Assembly (NCBI RefSeq): GCF_003008515.1
Contig: NZ_CP027668.1
Location: 2,844,001-2,908,000 of the forward strand
Origin: Phreatobacter cathodiphilus
GTDB taxonomy: Bacteria; Pseudomonadota; Alphaproteobacteria; Rhizobiales; Phreatobacteraceae
DNA length: 64,000 nucleotides
Direction: 5' to 3'
Below the pieces are notes generated by a model. That model made no database searches and was not told the DNA's origin. It saw only the letters and a list, made by a program, of their open reading frames with translations. Of the stretch, positions 13,950 to 30,668 are shown piece by piece. The position numbers were made by a program, and so were the translations under genes. Numbering within the stretch: the first letter of the stretch is position 1; the number at the start of each line of letters is the position of its first letter.

Positions 13950-14912
13950 TCATTTGTCGATGGCCGGCGCGGCGAGTTGCGGCGGCGCGGCCCGGAAGGC
14001 GTTGAACACCATGTCGGGCGCCGAGGTGTTGTGGCGCGAGGCGACGAGCCGACCGGCCCAGAGGTCGGTGGCGTTGGCCCGGCGGAACGGCATGATGGGC
14101 TCCTCTCGCCAGCCCGGCGCGTCCTTCTCGCGCACGGCGATGCGGGCGACGTCGGCGTTGAACTCGGTGACGTACATCGAGCGCAGCGCCGCGAAGGGGC
14201 CGCCGGCGATGGGACGGGCGAAGGCGACGTCGAGACCGATCATCTCCTGGTTCAGCGTCGAGAGCCGCACCGTGGCGCTGTTGCCGTCGGGATAGGTGAG
14301 GGTGAAGGTTTTGGTCGCCGGGTCGAAGGCGACCTCCTTGATCTTCACGATGGGACGGCCCTCCACCACGACGGGGCCGATGAGGAAGGACGAGCCGTAG
14401 GCGGTCCACCGGAGGTTGGAGGGCGGCAGCGGCCGGGCGCGCCAGTAACCGTCGGTCGGATAGAGGACCAGCACCTCCTCGGCCCGGTCGCGATAGCGGT
14501 ACCAGATCTGCAGGAGGTGGATGTTGCGCTCCGTGCGCTCGCCGATCTTCACCGTCGTGTCGGAGGGTCGCCAGAAGCCCTGCTCGCGATAGCCGACCAC
14601 CTGCCACTCCACCGTCTCGTAGAGCGTGATGCGCTGTGGCATCGGCTGGGCGAGCGCCTCCTCCTTCATGGGGCAGGCGGTCCAGTCGGGCGCGAAGCGG
14701 TCGACGGCCAGCGAGCCGATATAGGCGGGGTGGGCGGCCTCGATGCGGAAGGCGCGCACCTGCGGATTCGTCAGGTTCAGCGTGACGTTGTCCTTCTCCG
14801 CGCAGAGCACCGGCTCGGAGGCGTTGGTGACCTCCACCGGCAGGCCGTCGAGGGAGGCGGCGTGGGCGGCGGCGCTCAGGAGGAGCGCGGCCGCGACGAG
14901 GGCGAGACGCAT
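13950..14912 (-). CDS. Conserved secreted protein of unknown function
   Basis: A 320-aa protein with an N-terminal signal peptide (MRLALVAAALLLSAAAHAAS). No catalytic family was recognised. The mature part is rich in beta-type alternation with repeated Tyr/Trp (for example 'IHLLQIWYRYRDRAEEVLVLYPTDGYWRARP'), suggesting a periplasmic beta-sandwich. It starts 3 nt after the FkbM methyltransferase stop and so belongs to the mdoH-fkbM operon. A role in handling or modifying periplasmic glucans is suggested by context only. Confidence 0.8.
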   Translation of the reverse strand: MRLALVAAALLLSAAAHAASLDGLPVEVTNASEPVLCAEKDNVTLNLTNPQVRAFRIEAAHPAYIGSLAVDRFAPDWTACPMKEEALAQPMPQRITLYETVEWQVVGYREQGFWRPSDTTVKIGERTERNIHLLQIWYRYRDRAEEVLVLYPTDGYWRARPLPPSNLRWTAYGSSFLIGPVVVEGRPIVKIKEVAFDPATKTFTLTYPDGNSATVRLSTLNQEMIGLDVAFARPIAGGPFAALRSMYVTEFNADVARIAVREKDAPGWREEPIMPFRRANATDLWAGRLVASRHNTSAPDMVFNAFRAAPPQLAAPAIDK

Positions 14913-14915
14913 CGA

Positions 14916-15677
14916 TCAGTCCTTCGCGAGCACCGCATAGACATCGCCGGAATTGGCGGCGTGGGGAAGACCCGCCAGATGGGCGGTCATCGTCGCCTGG
15001 TCGACGAAACGGCCGAAGGTCAGGTTCTGGCTTTCCCCCAGCGCCAGGTCGAAGCCGTAGGCGCCGAGCCCCGCCAGCCTGTCGAGGCATTCGAAGGCCA
15101 CCTCGCGCTGGATGGTGGTGAACTCGAAGGAGAGGGCCGGAATAGGCTGCGACAACCCCTCCAGCACGTCGGCCTCGAAGCCCTCCACGTCGATCTTGGC
15201 GAAGTTCGGCACGCCGTAATCCGCCACCAGCCGGTCGAGGGTGAGGCAGGGCACGGTGATCTCGCGGTCCCAGACCTGGCCGTGCCAGCCCTCCGCCCCC
15301 GCCGCCGAGGCGACGAAGGCGTGGGAGGCGGTGCTGACCGTCGGGTTGGCGGTGTTGATGCTGAGCTTGAGTTCGCCCTCGGCGCCCCCGCAGGCGGCGC
15401 GCAGCAGCGTCACCCGCGAGTCACCCTCGAACAGCCGGGCGATGACGTCGGCCGGGCCCGGCTGCGGCTCCAGCGCCACAACCCGCGCACCCAGGCGGCG
15501 GAAGCTGGCGACGCGGTCGCCGACATGGCTGCCGATGTCGAAGGCGAGGCCGCCCTGCGGCACGAAGCGCCGGTAGAGCGCGTCCATGGCGGCGCCCTTG
15601 GCGGTGTCGCCGTGATAGGTGACGACCGACTTCGCCACGGCCACGGCTTCGGCGATGCGCTGGTCGAGGGACATCAT
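14916..15677 (-). CDS. FkbM family SAM-dependent methyltransferase
   Basis: A 253-aa class I methyltransferase. The SAM-binding motif 'LAFDIGSHVGDRVASFRRLG' lies near residues 43-62, the acidic motif II 'VVALEPQP' follows, and the FkbM signature 'VDVEGFEADVLEGL' appears here as 'IDVEGFEADVLEGL' near 175. FkbM enzymes usually O-methylate sugars or polyketides. The ATGATG start overlaps the mdoH stop, so the two proteins are coupled. A glycan substrate made by OpgH is an attractive but unproven idea. Confidence 0.88.
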   Translation of the reverse strand: MMSLDQRIAEAVAVAKSVVTYHGDTAKGAAMDALYRRFVPQGGLAFDIGSHVGDRVASFRRLGARVVALEPQPGPADVIARLFEGDSRVTLLRAACGGAEGELKLSINTANPTVSTASHAFVASAAGAEGWHGQVWDREITVPCLTLDRLVADYGVPNFAKIDVEGFEADVLEGLSQPIPALSFEFTTIQREVAFECLDRLAGLGAYGFDLALGESQNLTFGRFVDQATMTAHLAGLPHAANSGDVYAVLAKD

Positions 15678-17470
15678 GACGCGCGCGCCCGGGCGATCTC
15701 GTCCGGCATGGCGAACTCCTCGGGAATGCCGCAGAAGCGGGTGGCGACGAAGAGCCGGCCGAGGCGCGGCGAGGCCGTGATCACGGCGAAGGGCACCGCG
15801 ACGAGGAATCCGGCGGTGAGCGGCAGCGACCAGAGCGCCGCGGCGGGCGAGGCGCCCCACAGCAGGCCGAAGACCACCAGGCCGAAGGCCATCTGCGGCC
15901 AGAAGGCGTCCCAGGCCTCGCGCCAGGTCAGCGCCATGGCGTCGCGCTGCTGGCCGCCCCAGACCACCGACTTGCCGAAGGCGAGGCCGATCATGAAGAC
16001 GGTGATGCGGAAGGAGGTGAGCGCTCCGAGCAGGAAGGAGAAGACGAGTTCCGTCGCCGCCGCCGTGAGGAAGCGCAGCCGCCCGCCATAGCGGGCCGTG
16101 CCGCCGTCGCTCATCAGCACGTCGGCGAAACCCGCGATCTTGGGCATCAGGTACATCAGGAAGAAGACCACATAGACCGTCGCCGCGAAGCCGACGGGGA
16201 AAGCCTCGCGGCTCGGCCCGTGCCAGGCGAGGAAGGGCGAGAGCGCGATCATCAGCGTCCAGGCCGGCACGCCGACGAACATCAGGATAGCCCAGACGAG
16301 CTGGAAGCGGCTGATCGGCTTCAGGCCCGGCTGGTCCAGGAGCTTCACGTACTGCATGTTGCCCTGGCACCAGCGCACGTCGCGGCGCGAGAATTCGAGG
16401 ATGGTCGGCGGGTTCTCCTCCCAGGAGCCCTCCTCCACCGGCAGCACCCGCACCTCGTAGCCGGCGCGTCGCATGAAGGTCGCCTCCACCTGGTCGTGGG
16501 AGAGGATGTGGCCGCCGAGCGGCGGAGAACCGCCGAGCACCGGCAGGTGACAGTCCTCCATGAAGGGGCGGATGCGCACCAGCGCATTGTGCCCCCAGAA
16601 CGGACCGCAATCGCCCACCCACCAGGCCTGGCCCATGGTGTAGGCGCGCATGCCCTGGCGCATGCCGAACTGGAAGATGCGGGCGAAGGCCGAGGCCGAG
16701 GGCATGCCCACCACGAGGCTCTGCAGGATGCCGATCCGCGGATGGGCCTGCATCATGCGCACATGCTTCACGATGGTGGCGCCGGCCATCAGGCTGTCGG
16801 CGTCCAGCGGCAGCATCAGCTCGTAGCGCGAGCCCCAGCGGTCGAGGAAGTCGCGCACGTTGCCCGCCTTGAAGCCGGCATTGTCGGTGCGGCGGCGATA
16901 GACCACCCGCCCCTCGCCGGCGAGCGAGGCGAAGGCGGCGGCCGCCTTCTCCTCACGCTCGGCGATCTCGGGCCGGTTGGTGTCGGAGAGGATGAAATAG
17001 TCGAACTGGCCGCCCTCGCCGGTGGCGTCGATGCTCTCCTTGACGATGGCGAGGCGGCCGATGGCACGCTCGGGATCCTCGTTGCGCAGCGTCATGAACA
17101 CGGCGGTGCGGATGGCGAGGGACGTAGGCACGTTGCCGGCGACCGCGAAGGGCGCGACCTCCGCCATGGCGTTGCCGTCCCGATGCAGCAGCCAGAGGCC
17201 GATCAGCGCGTTCCAGAAGCCGAGGACCGTCCACGGCGTGGCGATGGCGAAGGCGAGCGCCAGCACGACGTCGACCGGCGTCCAGCCGCCCGTGCCGAGG
17301 ATCGACCAGGCCGCGCCGTTCAGCAGAAGCCAGGTGACGACGTTCAGCGCGACGACGAGGAGCCGCCGCCGGCGCAATTCTGCCGTGGACTGGACACCCG
17401 TCGGCGTCGTAGAGCCCTGCTGCGAGGCGGTGCCGCCGGTCGTTGCCGGAAACGGCGAGAGATCAGTCAT
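15674..17470 (-). CDS. mdoH: Glucans biosynthesis glucosyltransferase MdoH/OpgH
   Basis: A 598-aa inner-membrane GT2 enzyme that polymerises glucose from UDP-glucose into osmoregulated periplasmic glucan. There is an N-terminal pair of membrane segments (residues about 38-95). The glycosyltransferase domain has 'PLDADSLM' (the DxD acidic pair, about 215) and the product-binding (R/Q)xxRW motif as 'RRDVRWCQGN' (about 365). Four or more C-terminal membrane helices follow. It is shorter than E. coli OpgH (847 aa) but similar to other alphaproteobacterial forms. The open frame upstream of the ATG overlaps the divergent ADH-like gene and is not coding. Its usual partner opgG lies 11 kb away. Confidence 0.93.
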   Translation of the reverse strand: MTDLSPFPATTGGTASQQGSTTPTGVQSTAELRRRRLLVVALNVVTWLLLNGAAWSILGTGGWTPVDVVLALAFAIATPWTVLGFWNALIGLWLLHRDGNAMAEVAPFAVAGNVPTSLAIRTAVFMTLRNEDPERAIGRLAIVKESIDATGEGGQFDYFILSDTNRPEIAEREEKAAAAFASLAGEGRVVYRRRTDNAGFKAGNVRDFLDRWGSRYELMLPLDADSLMAGATIVKHVRMMQAHPRIGILQSLVVGMPSASAFARIFQFGMRQGMRAYTMGQAWWVGDCGPFWGHNALVRIRPFMEDCHLPVLGGSPPLGGHILSHDQVEATFMRRAGYEVRVLPVEEGSWEENPPTILEFSRRDVRWCQGNMQYVKLLDQPGLKPISRFQLVWAILMFVGVPAWTLMIALSPFLAWHGPSREAFPVGFAATVYVVFFLMYLMPKIAGFADVLMSDGGTARYGGRLRFLTAAATELVFSFLLGALTSFRITVFMIGLAFGKSVVWGGQQRDAMALTWREAWDAFWPQMAFGLVVFGLLWGASPAAALWSLPLTAGFLVAVPFAVITASPRLGRLFVATRFCGIPEEFAMPDEIARARAS

Positions 17471-17518
17471 CGATGAGCCTCCGTCGCCCGAAGCGGGCGG
17501 CGAAACGGGAGAAGCAGC

Positions 17519-18499
17519 ATGGCGGCGAATGCCCGAGCCCTCTGGTACGTCTCGCGCCGGACGGTAGACCTGCGCGACACAACGCTGGATGAACGCGGAC
17601 CTTCGGATGCCGAAATACGCATGATCTATAGCGGTGTCAGCCGTGGCACGGAAAGACTCGTCTTCAACGGCCTTGTCGCCGCACCGGAACGCGAGCGGAT
17701 GCGCTGTCCGATGCAGGAGGGAGACTTTCCCTTCCCGGTGAAATACGGCTACTGCGCCGTCGGCGAGGTGGAGGCCGGCCCGGACCATCTCGTCGGCCGC
17801 ACCGTCTTCACCCTGGCGCCGCACCAGACCCGCCTCCTCGCCCCCACCGACCGCGTCTCGGTCGTGCCGGTGCCCGAGGCCGTCCCCGCCCGCCGCGCCA
17901 TCCTCGCCGCCAATATGGAAACGGCGCTGAACGCGGTCTGGGATTCGGGCGTCGGCCCCGGCGACCGCGTCGTGGTGGTCGGCGGCGGCGTGCTCGGCCT
18001 GCTCGTCACCTTCATCGTCTCGCAGATCCCGGGCACCGAGGTGACGTTGGTCGACCCCGAACCCTCCCGCCGCGATTTCGCGAAGCTCTTCGGCGTCAAG
18101 TTCAGCAAGCCGCTGGACGGCCCGGCAGACTGCGACGTCGCCTTCCATGCCTCCGCCACGTCCGCGGGCCTCGCCTGCGCCCTCGCCTGCTGCGGCGACG
18201 AGGCGACCGTCGTCGAGCTCTCCTGGTTCGGCGACCAGGACCCGGCGGTGCCGCTCGGCGCCGGCTTCCATTCGAAGCGGCTGAAGCTGATCTCCTCGCA
18301 GGTGGGCATGGTCGCCACATCCAGGCGGCCGCGCTGGTCCTATGCGCGGCGGTTGGAAAAGGCGCTGAGCCTCCTCGCCGACGACCGCCTCGACCAGCTC
18401 ATCACCGCCGAGGTAGCCTTCGGCGACCTGCCAGCCGCCCTGCCGACAATCCTCGAGCCCGGCGCGCCCGGGCTCATGACGGCGGTGCGCTATGGCTGA
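17519..18499 (+). CDS. Alcohol dehydrogenase-like MDR-family reductase
   Basis: A 326-aa protein of the medium-chain dehydrogenase fold. Residues about 20-120 resemble the GroES-like domain, and about 140-270 the Rossmann domain with 'VVVVGGGVLGLLVTFIV' (GxGxxG). The usual catalytic-zinc GHE motif is not visible, so it may act without zinc or on an unusual substrate. It heads a five-gene operon divergent from mdoH (48 nt between the starts). Its 3' end overlaps the next gene by 8 nt. A redox step on the product of the pterin-synthase-like protein is inferred from context only. Confidence 0.82.
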   Translation: MAANARALWYVSRRTVDLRDTTLDERGPSDAEIRMIYSGVSRGTERLVFNGLVAAPERERMRCPMQEGDFPFPVKYGYCAVGEVEAGPDHLVGRTVFTLAPHQTRLLAPTDRVSVVPVPEAVPARRAILAANMETALNAVWDSGVGPGDRVVVVGGGVLGLLVTFIVSQIPGTEVTLVDPEPSRRDFAKLFGVKFSKPLDGPADCDVAFHASATSAGLACALACCGDEATVVELSWFGDQDPAVPLGAGFHSKRLKLISSQVGMVATSRRPRWSYARRLEKALSLLADDRLDQLITAEVAFGDLPAALPTILEPGAPGLMTAVRYG

Positions 18500-18953
18500 T
18501 CAGGCCGCGGATCGGGAGTTCGTCCCACCGCTCGTTCCGGAACTGGTGGTGACGGATCTCGACCGCAGCCTCGCCTTCTGGCTGGACGTCATGGGATTCC
18601 GCATCCGCTATCAGCGCCCGGAGCACCGCTTCGCCTATCTGATGCGCGGTGCCGCCCACGTCATGCTGGTCGAGCGGCGCCCGCCCGATCACGCCCGCGG
18701 CGAGACCTGGACGGGCGGCGCCCTCGAACCGCCATTCGGCCGCGGCATCAACTTTCAGATACAGGTCGACGACGTCGGTCCGGCGCTCGCCCTCCTCGCG
18801 CAGAAGAACTGGCCCCTGTTCCGTGAGCCGAGGGACGCCTGGTATCGTAAGGATGATGTCGAAGTGGGCCAGCGCGAGGTGATGTTCCAGGATCCGGACG
18901 GCTATCTCGTTCGTTTCGGTCAGTTCCTGGGCCAACGCCCTCTCTCCGCCTGA
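18492..18953 (+). CDS. VOC superfamily protein (bleomycin resistance/glyoxalase-like)
   Basis: A 153-aa protein with the vicinal-oxygen-chelate fold: 'PELVVTDLDRSLAFWLDVMGF' at the start (residues about 18-38) and 'VMFQDPDGYLVRFGQFLGQRP' at the end. The length and pattern match bleomycin-resistance-like proteins, which bind small aromatic ligands and often lack catalysis. It overlaps the reductase gene by 8 nt and precedes the pterin-synthase-like gene by 17 nt, so it is embedded in the operon. It could be a passenger, a ligand-binding/self-protection protein, or an enzyme of the pathway. Confidence 0.85.
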   Translation: MADQAADREFVPPLVPELVVTDLDRSLAFWLDVMGFRIRYQRPEHRFAYLMRGAAHVMLVERRPPDHARGETWTGGALEPPFGRGINFQIQVDDVGPALALLAQKNWPLFREPRDAWYRKDDVEVGQREVMFQDPDGYLVRFGQFLGQRPLSA

Positions 18954-18970
18954 CAGTCTTGGAGACACCC

Positions 18971-19381
18971 ATGTATTCCGTCGAAGTCCGCGACCGCATC
19001 ATGATCGCCCATTCCCTGCCCGATCCCTTCTTCGGGCCGGCCCAGGGCAAGCACGGCGCGAGCTTCGTGGTCGACGTGGCCTTTTTCCGCGAGACGCTGA
19101 CCGCGCAGAACGTCGTCGTCGACATCGGCGCGGCGCTGGACGTGCTCGGCAAGACGCTGAAGCGGCTCGCCTACCAGGACCTCGACACGCTGCCCGAATT
19201 CGCCGGCCAGCTCACGACCACCGAATTCCTCTGCAAATACGTCTTCGACCGCATGGCCGAGGCGGCGGCCTCGGGCGCGCTCGGGGCGGACGCCGCGGGC
19301 CTCGCCAAGATCCGCGTCACCCTCCACGAACACGACCTCGCCCGCGCCACCTTCGAGGCGCCGCTTGCCCGGCGGGCCTGA
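18971..19381 (+). CDS. 6-carboxytetrahydropterin/6-pyruvoyl-tetrahydropterin synthase-like protein, degenerate active site
   Basis: A 136-aa protein of the PTPS/QueD fold. The first zinc-ligand His is H14 in 'IMIAHSLPDPF', and the family's HGH motif appears as 'GKHGASF' (H28 kept, second His replaced by A30). The catalytic Cys that normally lies four residues before H28 is an Ala (A24). The C-terminal 'TLHEHDLARATFE' matches the family's substrate-binding Glu region. The ATG at 18971 is preferred over an in-frame TTG 12 nt earlier because GGAG lies at good spacing before it. Loss of Cys and a zinc ligand argues against normal PTPS or QueD activity. It sits with a glycosyltransferase and a methyltransferase. 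Confidence 0.85.
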   Translation: MYSVEVRDRIMIAHSLPDPFFGPAQGKHGASFVVDVAFFRETLTAQNVVVDIGAALDVLGKTLKRLAYQDLDTLPEFAGQLTTTEFLCKYVFDRMAEAAASGALGADAAGLAKIRVTLHEHDLARATFEAPLARRA

Positions 19382-19408
19382 TCCCGTGCGGCTTCGCGGG
19401 CGCCTGAC

Positions 19409-20497
19409 ATGACCCGGGCGGTCTTCGCCATTCCCGGCGACCTCGCGACGCCGACCGGCGGCTATCGCTATGACCGGGAGGTGCTGGCGAGAGCCGGCAC
19501 CAGCGGCGTCGACCTCGTCCACCTCGCCCTGCCCGGCAGCTATCCCAACCCTTCGGCCGACGATCTCCTGCGGACTGCCGGCGCCCTCGTCTCGCTGCCC
19601 GCCGGCGACGTCCTGCTCATCGACGGCCTCGCCTACGGCGCCCTGCCCGAAAGCATCTGCCTCTCGATCAAGAGCCCCATCGTGGCGCTGGTCCACCATC
19701 CCCTGGCGCTGGAGAGCGGCATTCCGCCGGAGGCGGCTGCGCGGCTCCGTGCCAGCGAGCGCACGGCCCTCGCCCATGCCCGCGCCGTCATCGTCACCAG
19801 CCGCTCCACCGCCCGCATTCTCGCCGAAGACTACGACGTCGCGCCCGACCGCATCACGGTGGCGGAACCCGGCACCGAACCGGTCCCGCGCGCCGGCGGC
19901 TCGGGCGAGCCGGCTCCCGTGATCCTGGCGGTCGGCGCGCTCTCGCCGCGCAAGGGTTACGACGTCCTAGTCGAGGCGCTCGCCCGGCTCGGGGGCGAAG
20001 CCTGGCGCCTGGTGATCGCCGGCGCCCGCGACCGCAGCCCCGACACCGACGCGGCCTTGCAGGCCGCCGTCGCCCGCCACGGGCTCGCCCGGCGGATCAC
20101 CCTCGCCGGGGCCGTCAGCGACGCCGAACTCGACCGTCTCTACGACGGCGCCGACATCTTCGTCCTGCCCTCGCGCTACGAGGGCTACGGCATGGTGCTT
20201 GGCGAGGCCATGGCGCGCGGCCTTCCCATCGTCACCACCACCGGCGGCGCCGCTGCCGAGACCGTGCCCGAAGGCGCGGCCATCAAGGTGCCGCCCGGCG
20301 ACGCCCGGGCGCTCGCCTCCGGCCTCTCCCGCCTCATCGCCAGCCGCCGCCTGCGCGCCGACTACGCCGACCGGGCCTTCAGGGCCGGCGAGGCCCTGCC
20401 CGGCTGGGACGACACGGCGCGCATCGTCGCCGGTGTCCTCGCCCGCGCCGGTGCCGACCCGGGCCATCCCGCGACGCAGGAAGGATCCTCTCGATGA
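19409..20497 (+). CDS. GT4 family glycosyltransferase
   Basis: A 362-aa GT-B fold glycosyltransferase. The C-terminal half carries the GT4 donor-site motif 'PSRYEGYGMVLGEAMARGLPIV' (residues about 253-274) with the ExxxxxxxE pattern. 'VGALSPRKGYDVLVEAL' near 172 is the usual start of the second domain. No membrane segment is seen, so it is probably cytosolic. It lies 27 nt after the pterin-synthase-like gene and overlaps the methyltransferase as ATGA. In this operon it may glycosylate a small molecule rather than a polysaccharide (inference). Confidence 0.9.
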   Translation: MTRAVFAIPGDLATPTGGYRYDREVLARAGTSGVDLVHLALPGSYPNPSADDLLRTAGALVSLPAGDVLLIDGLAYGALPESICLSIKSPIVALVHHPLALESGIPPEAAARLRASERTALAHARAVIVTSRSTARILAEDYDVAPDRITVAEPGTEPVPRAGGSGEPAPVILAVGALSPRKGYDVLVEALARLGGEAWRLVIAGARDRSPDTDAALQAAVARHGLARRITLAGAVSDAELDRLYDGADIFVLPSRYEGYGMVLGEAMARGLPIVTTTGGAAAETVPEGAAIKVPPGDARALASGLSRLIASRRLRADYADRAFRAGEALPGWDDTARIVAGVLARAGADPGHPATQEGSSR

Positions 20498-21330
20498 GCT
20501 TCTCACCCGAATGGCTCGCCCTGCGCGAGCCGGCGGACCACGCCGCCCGCTCGACCGACCTCATGGCCCGCCTCGCTCGACACTTTGCCGGCCGGGACCG
20601 CATCAACGTCGTCGACCTCGGCTGCGGAGCAGGCTCGAACCTGCGCGGCACCTTCGCCGCCCTGCCGGACGTGCAGGACTGGCGCCTCGTCGACTATGAT
20701 CCCGCCCTTCTCGCCGCCGCCCGCGCCCGCCTTGCCGCCTGGGCCGACGAGGCCCACGCCGACGGCGACCGCCTCCTGCTGCGCAAGGACGGCAAGGCCC
20801 TCTCGGTCGCCTTCCACCAGGCCGACCTCACCCGCGATCTCGCGACGGCGCTCCCCGAGAGCGCCGACCTCGTCACCGCCGCGGCGCTCTTCGACCTCGT
20901 CTCGCCCACCTGGATCGACGGCTTCGTCGCCCACCTCGCGCGCCGGCGCCTGCCGCTCTACACCGTGCTGACCTATGACGGCACCGAGCGCTGGGACCCG
21001 CCCCATCCGGCAGACGCGGCCATGCTGGCGGCCTTCCACGCCCACCAGGCGACCGACAAGGGCTTCGGGCCCGCCGCCGGCCCGAAGGCCACCCGGGCCA
21101 TGGCCGAGGCCTTCGCGGCCGCCGGCTACGACGTCGCCCGCGCACCGAGCCCGTGGGAGCTCGGGCCCGCCTTCGCCGATCTCGCGCGCGAGCTGGTGAC
21201 CGGCTTCGCCGGCGCCGTCCGCGAGACCGGCCGCGTTCCGGAGGCGGACATTGCCGGCTGGCTCGCCGCCCGCAGGACCCGCGTCACCTGCCATGTCGGC
21301 CACGAGGATCTCTTCGCCGTTCCGCGCTGA
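20494..21330 (+). CDS. Class I SAM-dependent methyltransferase
   Basis: A 278-aa protein with the SAM-binding motif 'NVVDLGCGAGSNLRGTFAAL' near residues 35-54 and acidic motif II 'WRLVDYDPALLAAARARL' near 60-77. It is the last gene of the operon, coupled to the GT4 gene and followed directly by a strong hairpin terminator. The acceptor is unknown. The ordered set reductase, VOC, PTPS-like, GT and methyltransferase suggests tailoring of a glycosylated, methylated metabolite. Confidence 0.88.
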   Translation: MSFSPEWLALREPADHAARSTDLMARLARHFAGRDRINVVDLGCGAGSNLRGTFAALPDVQDWRLVDYDPALLAAARARLAAWADEAHADGDRLLLRKDGKALSVAFHQADLTRDLATALPESADLVTAAALFDLVSPTWIDGFVAHLARRRLPLYTVLTYDGTERWDPPHPADAAMLAAFHAHQATDKGFGPAAGPKATRAMAEAFAAAGYDVARAPSPWELGPAFADLARELVTGFAGAVRETGRVPEADIAGWLAARRTRVTCHVGHEDLFAVPR

Positions 21331-21343
21331 CGCCCGGACGCAC

Positions 21344-21372
21344 GAAAGCCCCGGTGCATGGCCGGGGCTTTC
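21344..21372 (+). terminator. Hairpin terminator of the PTPS-like operon
   Basis: A perfect 11-bp stem, GAAAGCCCCGG with CCGGGGCTTTC, and a 7-nt loop, only 13 nt after the methyltransferase stop. The AAAG/CTTT ends make it potentially active in both directions. Confidence 0.8.
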
Positions 21373-28891: not shown

Positions 28892-29075
28892 GTCTGCGTC
28901 TCCCCTGGTCGGCGCGCACACTGGCAAGGTGACACCGCGCCCGCAAGCGGGCCGGGCGGAGGACAGCGATGCACGGACTCCAGGCCGCAGGGCGGGCCTC
29001 TTGACGTCGCGCGCGTGAAGGCCGCATGTCGCCATGCTGCCCCGCGGCAGCGCGTACCGAAGTACCAGAGGCTTC

Positions 29076-30668
29076 ATGCGACTGCCGACTTTCGCCCGCC
29101 GTGACGCGCTCAAACTCATCGCCGCCGCCGGGGTGTCGTGGCCCGCGCTGGCGCAGGCGCAGCAGCCGCCCGCCGGCCAGCCGCAGGCCGCCTCGCCCCA
29201 GCCGCAGGCCCGCTTCGGCTTCGAGGAGGTGGAGCGCCGCGCCCGCGACCTCGCCGCCCTTCCCTACGAGGCCCCGCGTCCGGACCTGCCACAGTCCCTG
29301 ACGGCGATGAACTTCGACCAGTACCGCGACCTGCGCTTCCGCCCCGAGCGGTCGCTGCTGCAGCAGGGCGGTGGCGCCTTCCGCATGCAGATGTTCCACC
29401 TCGGCTTCATCTACCGCACGCCGGTGGTGGTGAACGTCATCCGCGACGGCATCTCGACCCCCGTGCCCTATGCCGCCGCCCTGTTCGATTACGGCCGCAA
29501 CCGCTTCGAGCGGCCGCTGCCCATCGACCTCGGCTTCGCCGGCTTCCGCATCCACCACCCGCTCAACGACCCGCGCATCCACGACGAGCTCATCTCCTTC
29601 CTCGGCGCGAGCTATTTCCGTTTCCTCGGCCGGGGACAGAAATACGGCCTCTCGGCCCGCGGCATCGCCGTCAACACGGCGGGGCCCGGCCAGGAGGAGT
29701 TCCCGATCTTCCGCGAGTTCTGGGTCGACACGCCCCCGGCCGAAGCCCAGTCCTGCCACATCTACGCCCTGCTCGACGGCGAGAGCCTCACGGGTGCCTT
29801 CCGCTTCACCGTCTTCCCGGCTCAGGAGACCGTGCTCGACATCCGCTGCACGCTGTTTCCGCGGCGGCCGATCCCGAAGCTCGGCGTCGCGCCGCTCACC
29901 TCCATGTTCTTCTATGCGGAGAACGACCGGCGCTCCTTCGACGACTTCCGCCCCGAGCTGCACGATTCCGACGGCCTGCTGATCCATTCCGATACGGGCG
30001 AGTGGCTCTGGCGCCCGTTGCGCAACCCGCGCCAGGTCGAAGTCTCGCAATTCGTCGACCGCCAGGTGCGCGGCTTCGGCCTCATGCAGCGCGACCGCAC
30101 CTTCGAGCACTACCAGGACCTCGACCTGAACTATGAGCTCAGGCCGAGCTACTGGGTGGAGCCGCGCGAGGGCTTCAGCGAGGGTCGCGTCGAGCTCGTC
30201 GAGATCCCCACCACCGACGAGACCAACGACAACATCGTCGCCTATTGGGTGCCCAACCGGCCGGTGGAAGCCGGCCAGACCCTCACCTTCTCCTATCGCC
30301 TGGTCTCGACCATGAACGAGGCGCGCCTGCATCCCGGCGGCTTCGCGCTCAACACCTTCCGAACCCGCCCCGTCGCGCTGGGTTCAGGGGAACAGGCCCC
30401 GCCCAACGCCGCGCGCTTCATCGTCGACTTCGCCGGCGGCGACCTCGAATATCACCTGAGCCAGCCGGACGCGGTGCAGGTCGTGCCCTCAGCCAGCAAT
30501 GCGCGGATCACCCGCACCTTCCTCATTCCCAATCCGCAGACCCGCGGCTTCCGCGCCGGCATCGACGTCGTCGGCGACCCCGGCCAGACCGCCGATCTGC
30601 GGGCCTTCCTGCGCACGGGCAACAGGGCGCTGACCGAGACCTGGACCTTCCCCTGGAAGGTCGACTGA
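29076..30668 (+). CDS. opgG: Periplasmic glucan biosynthesis protein OpgG/MdoG
   Basis: A 530-aa periplasmic protein needed for osmoregulated periplasmic glucan backbone formation. The N-terminus has a Tat-like leader (FARRDALKLIAAAGVSW) with cleavage near LAQAQ. The mature part begins 'FGFEEVERRARDLAALPYEAP', the start of the MdoG beta-sandwich domain. The second, Ig-like domain ends with 'RTGNRALTETWTFPWKVD'. The ATG at 29076 has AGAGG at good spacing; an earlier in-frame ATG (29034) would hide the leader. Unlike enterobacteria, opgH is not adjacent (15.7-17.5 kb, other strand). Confidence 0.93.
   Translation: MRLPTFARRDALKLIAAAGVSWPALAQAQQPPAGQPQAASPQPQARFGFEEVERRARDLAALPYEAPRPDLPQSLTAMNFDQYRDLRFRPERSLLQQGGGAFRMQMFHLGFIYRTPVVVNVIRDGISTPVPYAAALFDYGRNRFERPLPIDLGFAGFRIHHPLNDPRIHDELISFLGASYFRFLGRGQKYGLSARGIAVNTAGPGQEEFPIFREFWVDTPPAEAQSCHIYALLDGESLTGAFRFTVFPAQETVLDIRCTLFPRRPIPKLGVAPLTSMFFYAENDRRSFDDFRPELHDSDGLLIHSDTGEWLWRPLRNPRQVEVSQFVDRQVRGFGLMQRDRTFEHYQDLDLNYELRPSYWVEPREGFSEGRVELVEIPTTDETNDNIVAYWVPNRPVEAGQTLTFSYRLVSTMNEARLHPGGFALNTFRTRPVALGSGEQAPPNAARFIVDFAGGDLEYHLSQPDAVQVVPSASNARITRTFLIPNPQTRGFRAGIDVVGDPGQTADLRAFLRTGNRALTETWTFPWKVD

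Follow-up and report, generated by a model that had tools for sequence, protein, structure and literature searches.

A PTPS-IV gene unit of Phreatobacter and its relatives: a conserved four-gene core, its GTP cyclohydrolase II partner and a candidate pterin-like product

Background

Proteins of the PTPS family have been divided by motif into PTPS-I, PTPS-II and PTPS-III (PMC5041015) and a fourth type, PTPS-IV, for which the signature FGPAQ and a gene neighbourhood containing the domains PF00925 and PF01872 were described in 2017 (PMC5445326). The latter paper credits the signature to PMC5041015, in whose text, as far as it was accessible, the letters FGPAQ do not occur; that text also states, citing unpublished work, that archaeal PTPS-IV takes part in F420 synthesis. 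In the accessible part of PMC5445326, PF00925 is labelled GTP cyclohydrolase I/FolE2 and the section on PTPS-IV names no alcohol dehydrogenase (ADH), GT4 glycosyltransferase, methyltransferase, MdoH, pathway or product. Here, we report on a gene of predicted PTPS-IV type (18971..19381, plus strand) and the operon around it in Phreatobacter cathodiphilus. The stretch analysed, hereafter the window, is 64,000 nucleotides long and corresponds to bases 2844001-2908000 of the complete 4.49-Mb genome.

The closest relative of known structure is SCO6650 of Streptomyces coelicolor, which is actinobacterial and carries the label 'uncharacterized' in the PDB. A 2008 paper reportedly described it as a protein without zinc and without PTPS activity that could bind a pterin.

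Glycosylation of pterins by bacteria is known from the pteridine glycosyltransferases of Chlorobium and cyanobacteria (PMC5683033; PMC13259868). According to the available text of these sources, the Chlorobium enzyme acts on tetrahydrobiopterin. The latter is a product of GTP cyclohydrolase I (PMC5041015), whereas the cyclohydrolase co-conserved with the present locus is of type II, and we liken our GT4 protein to these enzymes by its proposed reaction. Within the part of PMC13259868 that could be consulted, a 2026 review of pterin signalling, the terms PTPS, RibD and GTP cyclohydrolase II do not occur.

A first-pass annotation of the window had proposed a five-gene operon (17519-21330), built around a degenerate PTPS-like protein, as a candidate undescribed pathway to a glycosylated, methylated pterin-like or other heterocyclic metabolite. 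Our analysis shows that four of the five genes form a conserved core shared with many other genomes and co-occurring with GTP cyclohydrolase II (GCH II) and RibD_C subfamilies. On balance, we think that the unit probably makes a glycosylated, methylated, pterin-like product fed by GCH II.

Results

The PTPS-like protein of the window scores 61.4 bits against the Pfam family PTPS PF01242 (cut-off 22.4). Its predicted model (mean pLDDT 94) is matched best by SCO6650 (3d7j; 53% identity, TM-score 0.93, rmsd 1.0 Å over 131 columns), followed by E. coli QueD with 19-22% identity and an rmsd of 2.4-3.8 Å. As a yardstick for the active site we aligned it with five proteins from related genomes that are of QueD type and carry CxxxHGH; a sixth (L184), which has HGH without the Cys four places before, was dropped. 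Relative to the five, the Cys is replaced by Ala24, the third zinc His by Ala30 and the catalytic His by Tyr68, while His14, His28 and Glu120 are retained, the nucleophile, zinc and catalytic roles being those that we take the aligned QueD residues to have. The description of the protein as degenerate was apt in this respect. Among 23 family rows His14, His28, Ala24, Ala30 and Glu120 are invariant and Tyr68 nearly so, and each of the six residues is kept in 89 or 90 of 90 named loci, partly by construction of the scan. The signature FGPAQ is present in all 23 rows, the window protein included, and in 88 of the 90 named loci, 80 of these having been found by peptide patterns of which one contains FGPAQ.

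The other signatures are absent. Where PTPS-I/QueD has CxxxHGH the aligned residues are AQGKHGA; the PTPS-II motif CxxxxxHGH fails for want of HGH and of a Cys ahead of the His; and the PTPS-III motif ExxHGH is replaced by QxxHGA. A classical folate or biopterin PTPS was ruled out by these motifs. The QueD model TIGR03367 gives 23.9 against a cut-off of 89.25, and a search of the window's genome returned no other PTPS-family match. By its sequence the protein is of PTPS-IV type, not QueD; the ordinary QueD that could have undone the earlier proposal was not found by score or by motif, although queC and queE were not searched. The word 'undescribed' has to be given up for the subfamily, which already had a name (PTPS-IV, FGPAQ; SCO6650).

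All five reading frames of the operon lie on the plus strand. The core consists of an MDR-type (polyol/alcohol dehydrogenase-like) oxidoreductase (17519..18499; here called ADH, assigned by subfamily search and predicted fold), the PTPS-IV-type protein (Pfam, alignment and predicted model), a GT4 glycosyltransferase (19409..20497; Pfam Glycos_transf_1 PF00534 and locus comparison) and a class I SAM methyltransferase (20494..21330; Pfam Methyltransf_25 PF13649 and locus comparison), and a VOC/glyoxalase-fold protein (18492..18953; Pfam Glyoxalase PF00903) is inserted after the first. The last three Pfam matches named all exceed their cut-offs. The reading frames, the overlaps of 8 nt (ADH/VOC) and 4 nt (GT4/methyltransferase) and the gaps of 17 nt (VOC-PTPS) and 27 nt (PTPS-GT4) agree exactly with the first-pass annotation, whose family names were borne out by Pfam for four proteins and by a predicted MDR fold for the ADH, which reached no Pfam cut-off (best 18.4 bits). 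The ADH model (mean pLDDT 91) has a medium-chain dehydrogenase fold and its nearest folds are zinc-type MDR enzymes, including L-idonate 5-dehydrogenase, sorbitol dehydrogenase and threonine dehydrogenase, at 12-21% identity; as modelled, it resembles polyol dehydrogenases among other MDR enzymes. A comparison of the methyltransferase with solved structures led nowhere (best E 0.63).

Conservation was surveyed in 101 genomes, the window's own and 100 relatives, and a protein search found the PTPS-like gene in 33 of them. We fetched 30 distinct loci, one per genome, from 30 of these 33 (L001 and L002 are one locus). The order ADH-PTPS-GT4-methyltransferase is kept in all 30, which are from Hyphomicrobiales, and the VOC gene is present in three (G000, G001 and G006). 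Since these three belong to one genus, VOC is a local insertion and was ruled out as a core member, and the 'five-gene operon' is therefore a four-gene core conserved as a set. The arrangement is not due to chance and the operon is real; the possibility that its genes rarely occur together did not materialise for the core. The ADH subfamily, defined by more than 400 bits (next 189), occurs in exactly the 33 genomes that carry the PTPS-like gene, as verified by set equality, and its coordinates adjoin that gene in every one.

The unit extends well beyond this order. Of 385 genomes drawn from the class, 45 contain the PTPS-like gene (E up to 1e-10); of 398 drawn from the phylum, 27 do (E up to 1e-15). 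The peptide patterns confirmed at least 581 loci, and among the best 80 of these, some of them on short contigs, PTPS was counted in 80, the methyltransferase in 75, GT4 in 73 and the dehydrogenase in 72, with MdoH in 53, RibD_C in 48, cytochrome b561 in 43 and RibA in 35 as neighbours. In Ancylobacter vacuolatus (L112) a single locus unites the RibA-like, RibD_C, ADH and PTPS-IV genes. Plasmid records of Streptomyces, Microbacterium, Thiodictyon, Methylosinus, Neorhizobium and Agrobacterium hold a PTPS-IV gene, and the core unit is present on plasmids of Streptomyces, Microbacterium, Thiodictyon and Agrobacterium. On a conjugative Neorhizobium plasmid (L178 5098-10272) mdoH heads the same run, 2 bp before the dehydrogenase, a sign of transfer as a unit.

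Neighbouring genes were surveyed by comparing wider stretches of 20 genomes with the window, with identities taken from NCBIfam and Pfam. The recurring neighbours are a RibA-like GCH II whose N-terminal part is long, a RibD_C reductase that stands alone and has no deaminase domain, a divergent MdoH-type protein, cytochrome b561 and, often, an FkbM methyltransferase with an unnamed protein. Profile searches, which scored only the best first-look candidates and included some fragmented draft genomes, were read with bit-score gaps set after the tables had been seen: RibD_C above 225 (next 135), MdoH above 771 (next 494) and, like the ADH, RibA-like above 400, with G074 (294) and the short form of G063 (178) counted as absent. 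The RibD_C-like subfamily was found in 21/33 PTPS-positive and 0/68 PTPS-negative genomes (p 1.4e-13), the full-length RibA-like protein in 23/33 and 2/68 (p 6.6e-13) and the cluster-type MdoH in 29/33 and 1/68 (p 6.7e-20), genome-level p-values that are too small because the genomes are related; by genus the counts are 17/19 vs 0/55 for RibD_C, 10/19 vs 1/55 for RibA-like and 16/19 vs 0/55 for MdoH. The co-conserved cyclohydrolase and reductase that the first-pass annotation had thought worth looking for are hence both there, the cyclohydrolase being of type II (RibA) and accompanied by stand-alone RibD_C; folE was not searched. The PTPS-negative genomes with a full-length RibA-like protein are G040 and G082 (family f30), and G085 is the one with a cluster-type MdoH; these may be relics or may serve other uses.

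A RibA-like cluster member (L034) scores 168.4 bits against PF00925 (cut-off 23.3). Cys237, Cys248, Cys250 and Tyr271, a Cys set and a Tyr whose roles we take as given, are invariant in the eight rows of the RibA alignment, from which a row of another cyclohydrolase family (L043) was excluded, and the copy in the window's genome has the same letters. Domain and residues together predict that this partner, acting in trans, is a GTP cyclohydrolase II. The RibA-like gene of the window's genome (C1:1622883-1623950, within L052 8845-9975, genome 1622844-1623974) adjoins cytochrome b561 and lies more than 1.2 Mb from the operon.

Upstream, and divergent from the operon across 48 bp (17471..17518) in which no sigma-70-type promoter match was found, lies a gene for an MdoH/OpgH paralogue, a GT2 membrane glucosyltransferase assigned by NCBIfam and profile search (15674..17470, minus strand). 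Cluster MdoH resembles the OpgH/MdoH glucan system in matching the model NF003963 (906 bits; cut-off 884) and differs from it in its surroundings. The MdoH search splits into 30 proteins of 771-980 bits and 49 proteins of 311-495 bits. In the high-scoring class, 29 of the 30 are in PTPS-positive genomes and no more than 3 kb from the PTPS gene, and none lies within 1 kb of an MdoG match, whereas 48 of the 49 low-scoring proteins are beside mdoG and the forty-ninth is at a contig end. Both classes are present in the window's genome (2859665-2861431 for the cluster, 1521657-1523342 beside mdoG). Judged by sequence, cluster MdoH is a separate paralogue class, and it belongs to the unit, whose first-drawn limits had left it outside. 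The link of MdoG itself to PTPS-IV is weaker but not absent (25/33 PTPS-positive vs 23/68 negative genomes; p 1e-4 by genome, 0.03 by genus).

In place of MdoH, other lineages usually have a CDP-alcohol phosphotransferase and an LPG-synthase-type protein. Among the 80 named loci and 8 of 10 plasmid loci (88 in all, two cluster-less Streptomyces plasmids being left out), 71 stretches are at least 15 kb long; 45 have MdoH only, 13 have CDP-alcohol phosphotransferase and/or LPG_synthase_TM without MdoH, one has both and 12 have neither. The two sets are largely mutually exclusive (p 1e-6, with no correction for kinship), and therefore two membrane modules seem to take over from one core. On a Streptomyces fungicidicus plasmid the neighbourhood lacks MdoH and contains a CDP-alcohol phosphotransferase, a creatininase and a GCH II of shorter length. 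The idea that this GCH II leaves a formylated product for the creatininase to deformylate was dropped, as the enzyme keeps the Tyr at the motif and the sequence lends no support. A gene labelled sulfatase in the Agrobacterium record had no Pfam match.

Downstream of the mdoH-like gene, also on the minus strand, are an FkbM-family methyltransferase (14916..15677), a neighbour in 29 of the best 80 of the at least 581 named loci, and a conserved protein of an unnamed family (13950..14912), counted in 24 of the same 80. The latter has no Pfam match, its relative in L040 has no NCBIfam match, and its family recurs beside FkbM and MdoH genes. A GC-rich hairpin 3' of the methyltransferase gene (21344..21372, plus strand) may mark the 3' end of the transcript. 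The 61-nt stretch that holds it folds with -30.5 kcal/mol (z -3.4), so the hairpin is strong. Its T-run, however, is part of the stem, and it is absent from the output of the terminator scan, so that the 'strong terminator' noted earlier is borne out only in part. Scans of the window for sigma-70-type promoters, Rfam families and tRNA genes each gave no match.

Discussion

GCH II yields 2,5-diamino-6-ribosylamino-4(3H)-pyrimidinone 5'-phosphate, a deaminase-less reductase keeps the 2-amino group, and in the PTPS fold the conserved Glu binds a 2-amino-4-oxopyrimidine. On this background we propose that Phreatobacter carries here its copy of a widespread PTPS-IV unit that would make a pterin-like, 2-amino-4-oxopyrimidine-derived compound from GTP via GCH II and not via cyclohydrolase I. 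The RibA-like enzyme would open the ring of GTP and remove formate, and the stand-alone RibD_C protein, having no deaminase domain, would convert the ribose to a ribityl chain and leave the 2-amino group in place. The MDR dehydrogenase may oxidise a ribityl hydroxyl, possibly to a ketone, which by closing a ring with the 5-amino group would form a dihydropterin. PTPS-IV, holding the 2-amino-4-oxopyrimidine by its kept Glu, may assist in closing the ring or in reactions of the side chain, and would do so without Cys/His catalysis of the usual kind. Glycosylation by GT4 and methylation by the methyltransferase would follow, after which the OpgH paralogue, or in other lineages the CDP-alcohol phosphotransferase with the LPG-synthase-type membrane protein, may deliver the product to the membrane or carry it across. 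The dedicated reductase missing from the window's genome would be replaced there by the housekeeping RibD or by a spontaneous step. What was computed is gene conservation, co-occurrence, family membership and the loss of catalytic residues; from these we infer all of the reactions and their sequence, as well as the product and where it is located. Any one order of steps is much less secure than the reading of the product, and the conserved core, the non-QueD PTPS and the co-conserved cyclohydrolase speak in part for the glycosylated, methylated pterin-like metabolite first proposed.

The scheme can be carried further, to a second route to pterins in which GCH II, RibD_C and a polyol-type dehydrogenase replace the Amadori step of GCH I. 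The ribose would be reduced and the chain then re-oxidised to a ketone, PTPS-IV with its reduced metal site would close or trim the ring, and the glycosylated, methylated pterin would go to the OpgH paralogue, giving a pterin glycoconjugate located in the envelope or periplasm of many Proteobacteria; Actinobacteria would have a related version. We regard this extended form as improbable.

Several observations weigh against a GCH II-fed pterin-like product. We know of no metabolite, enzyme assay or mutant for the cluster, and the degenerate site could point to a binding function in place of an enzymatic one. The profile search found no dedicated RibD_C match in the window's genome and in 8 of 11 other Phreatobacter genomes. 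In three of the genus (G003, G007 and G008) the RibD_C gene is beside the RibA-like gene, between it and cytochrome b561, and in the RibA regions of G000, G002, G005 and G006 no RibD_C is found between the two. The best RibD_C matches (about 100 bits) in the Phreatobacter genomes without the dedicated gene are taken to be the housekeeping enzyme. The window's genome has lost the dedicated reductase, while Phreatobacter keeps the cyclohydrolase elsewhere, and therefore the reductase step, if it exists, is performed by the housekeeping RibD, occurs spontaneously or is bypassed. With no dedicated RibD_C and its RibA-like gene elsewhere, this genome differs from the neighbourhood described in the accessible part of PMC5445326. 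A full-length RibA-like gene is also missing from 10 of the 33 PTPS-IV genomes, and since both genes are missing in some, neither is strictly required as a separate gene. Two Streptomyces plasmids carry a PTPS-IV gene without the cluster (L172 9001-9911 and L179 9001-9399), and several Rhodobacteraceae among the best 80 of the at least 581 named loci have no GT4 beside it. Finally, 8 of 12 Phreatobacter genomes have an MdoG homologue on the same contig as cluster MdoH, at a distance of 11-34 kb, so a glucan role could still apply there; in the window the nearest is an MdoG/OpgD-like gene with an apparent twin-arginine leader (29034-30668, plus strand), 11.6 kb away.

Two side observations belong here. 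One of the cluster-less Streptomyces plasmid genes precedes a MEKHLA-domain gene, and the window's genome has three MdoG homologues, among them the MdoG/OpgD-like gene of the window, which is not the homologue adjoining the other mdoH copy.

The MdoG homologues near the cluster lead to an alternative in which the locus serves an envelope glycan, with the OpgH paralogue, GT4, the methyltransferase and FkbM decorating a surface glycan such as periplasmic glucans and the PTPS-like protein recruited to a task unrelated to pterins. The MdoH paralogue in 29 of 33 PTPS-IV genomes fits such a role, as do the CDP-alcohol phosphotransferase and LPG_synthase_TM of the other architecture. Against it, the GCH II and RibD_C subfamilies co-occur strongly with the unit and are not needed for glycans, the cluster class of MdoH differs from the one adjacent to mdoG, and in six PTPS-positive genomes, including G053 and G091 (100% complete) and G034 and G081 (fragmented), cluster MdoH is found without an MdoG match. 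We hold this alternative to be unlikely.

About the same small chance falls to a non-catalytic, pterin-binding scaffold or sensor, in which case the compound would come from other enzymes using housekeeping riboflavin or folate intermediates. Catalytic residues that are lost relative to QueD while the Glu is kept would be natural in such a protein, and genomes without dedicated RibA-like and RibD_C genes could be accommodated; the strict co-occurrence with the ADH and the conserved gene order instead suggest an obligate pathway step.

RibD_C and GCH II supply deazaflavin precursors, and their presence near PTPS-IV could be read as pointing to F420 (deazaflavin) synthesis. This role, stated without data for archaea in the accessible text of PMC5041015, does not fit here because the F420 ligase CofE (PF01996) is found in 2/33 PTPS-IV genomes and 9/68 others, the window's own genome being without a match; we rejected the F420 pathway on this distribution and give it very little credence. 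Least credible is an ordinary QueD for preQ0/queuosine, for which most annotated plasmid relatives bear the public name '6-carboxytetrahydropterin synthase' and which is refuted by the TIGR03367 score and by the absence of CxxxHGH, with other residues in place of the Cys and the third zinc His. A second PTPS-family protein is also present in 8 of the 33 genomes, a further point against this reading.

Conclusions

The full-text literature, from which most subscription journals are absent, yielded only PMC5445326 and PMC5041015 on the subfamily, none on the gene set or product, and nothing on the OpgH paralogue or on the proteins that replace it; the neighbourhood of cyclohydrolase and RibD_C is already in print. 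The crystal structure available for the PTPS-IV/SCO6650 group dates from 2008 and its signature was named in 2016-2017, and our searches turned up neither a pathway nor a product published for bacterial members. In public annotation these proteins bear the names of queuosine or biopterin enzymes, names that the motif tests do not support. Co-occurrence narrows the enzyme set to a dehydrogenase that is always present, GCH II and RibD_C that usually are, and mostly one of two membrane modules, and therefore the pathway can be rebuilt in a host and its product sought.

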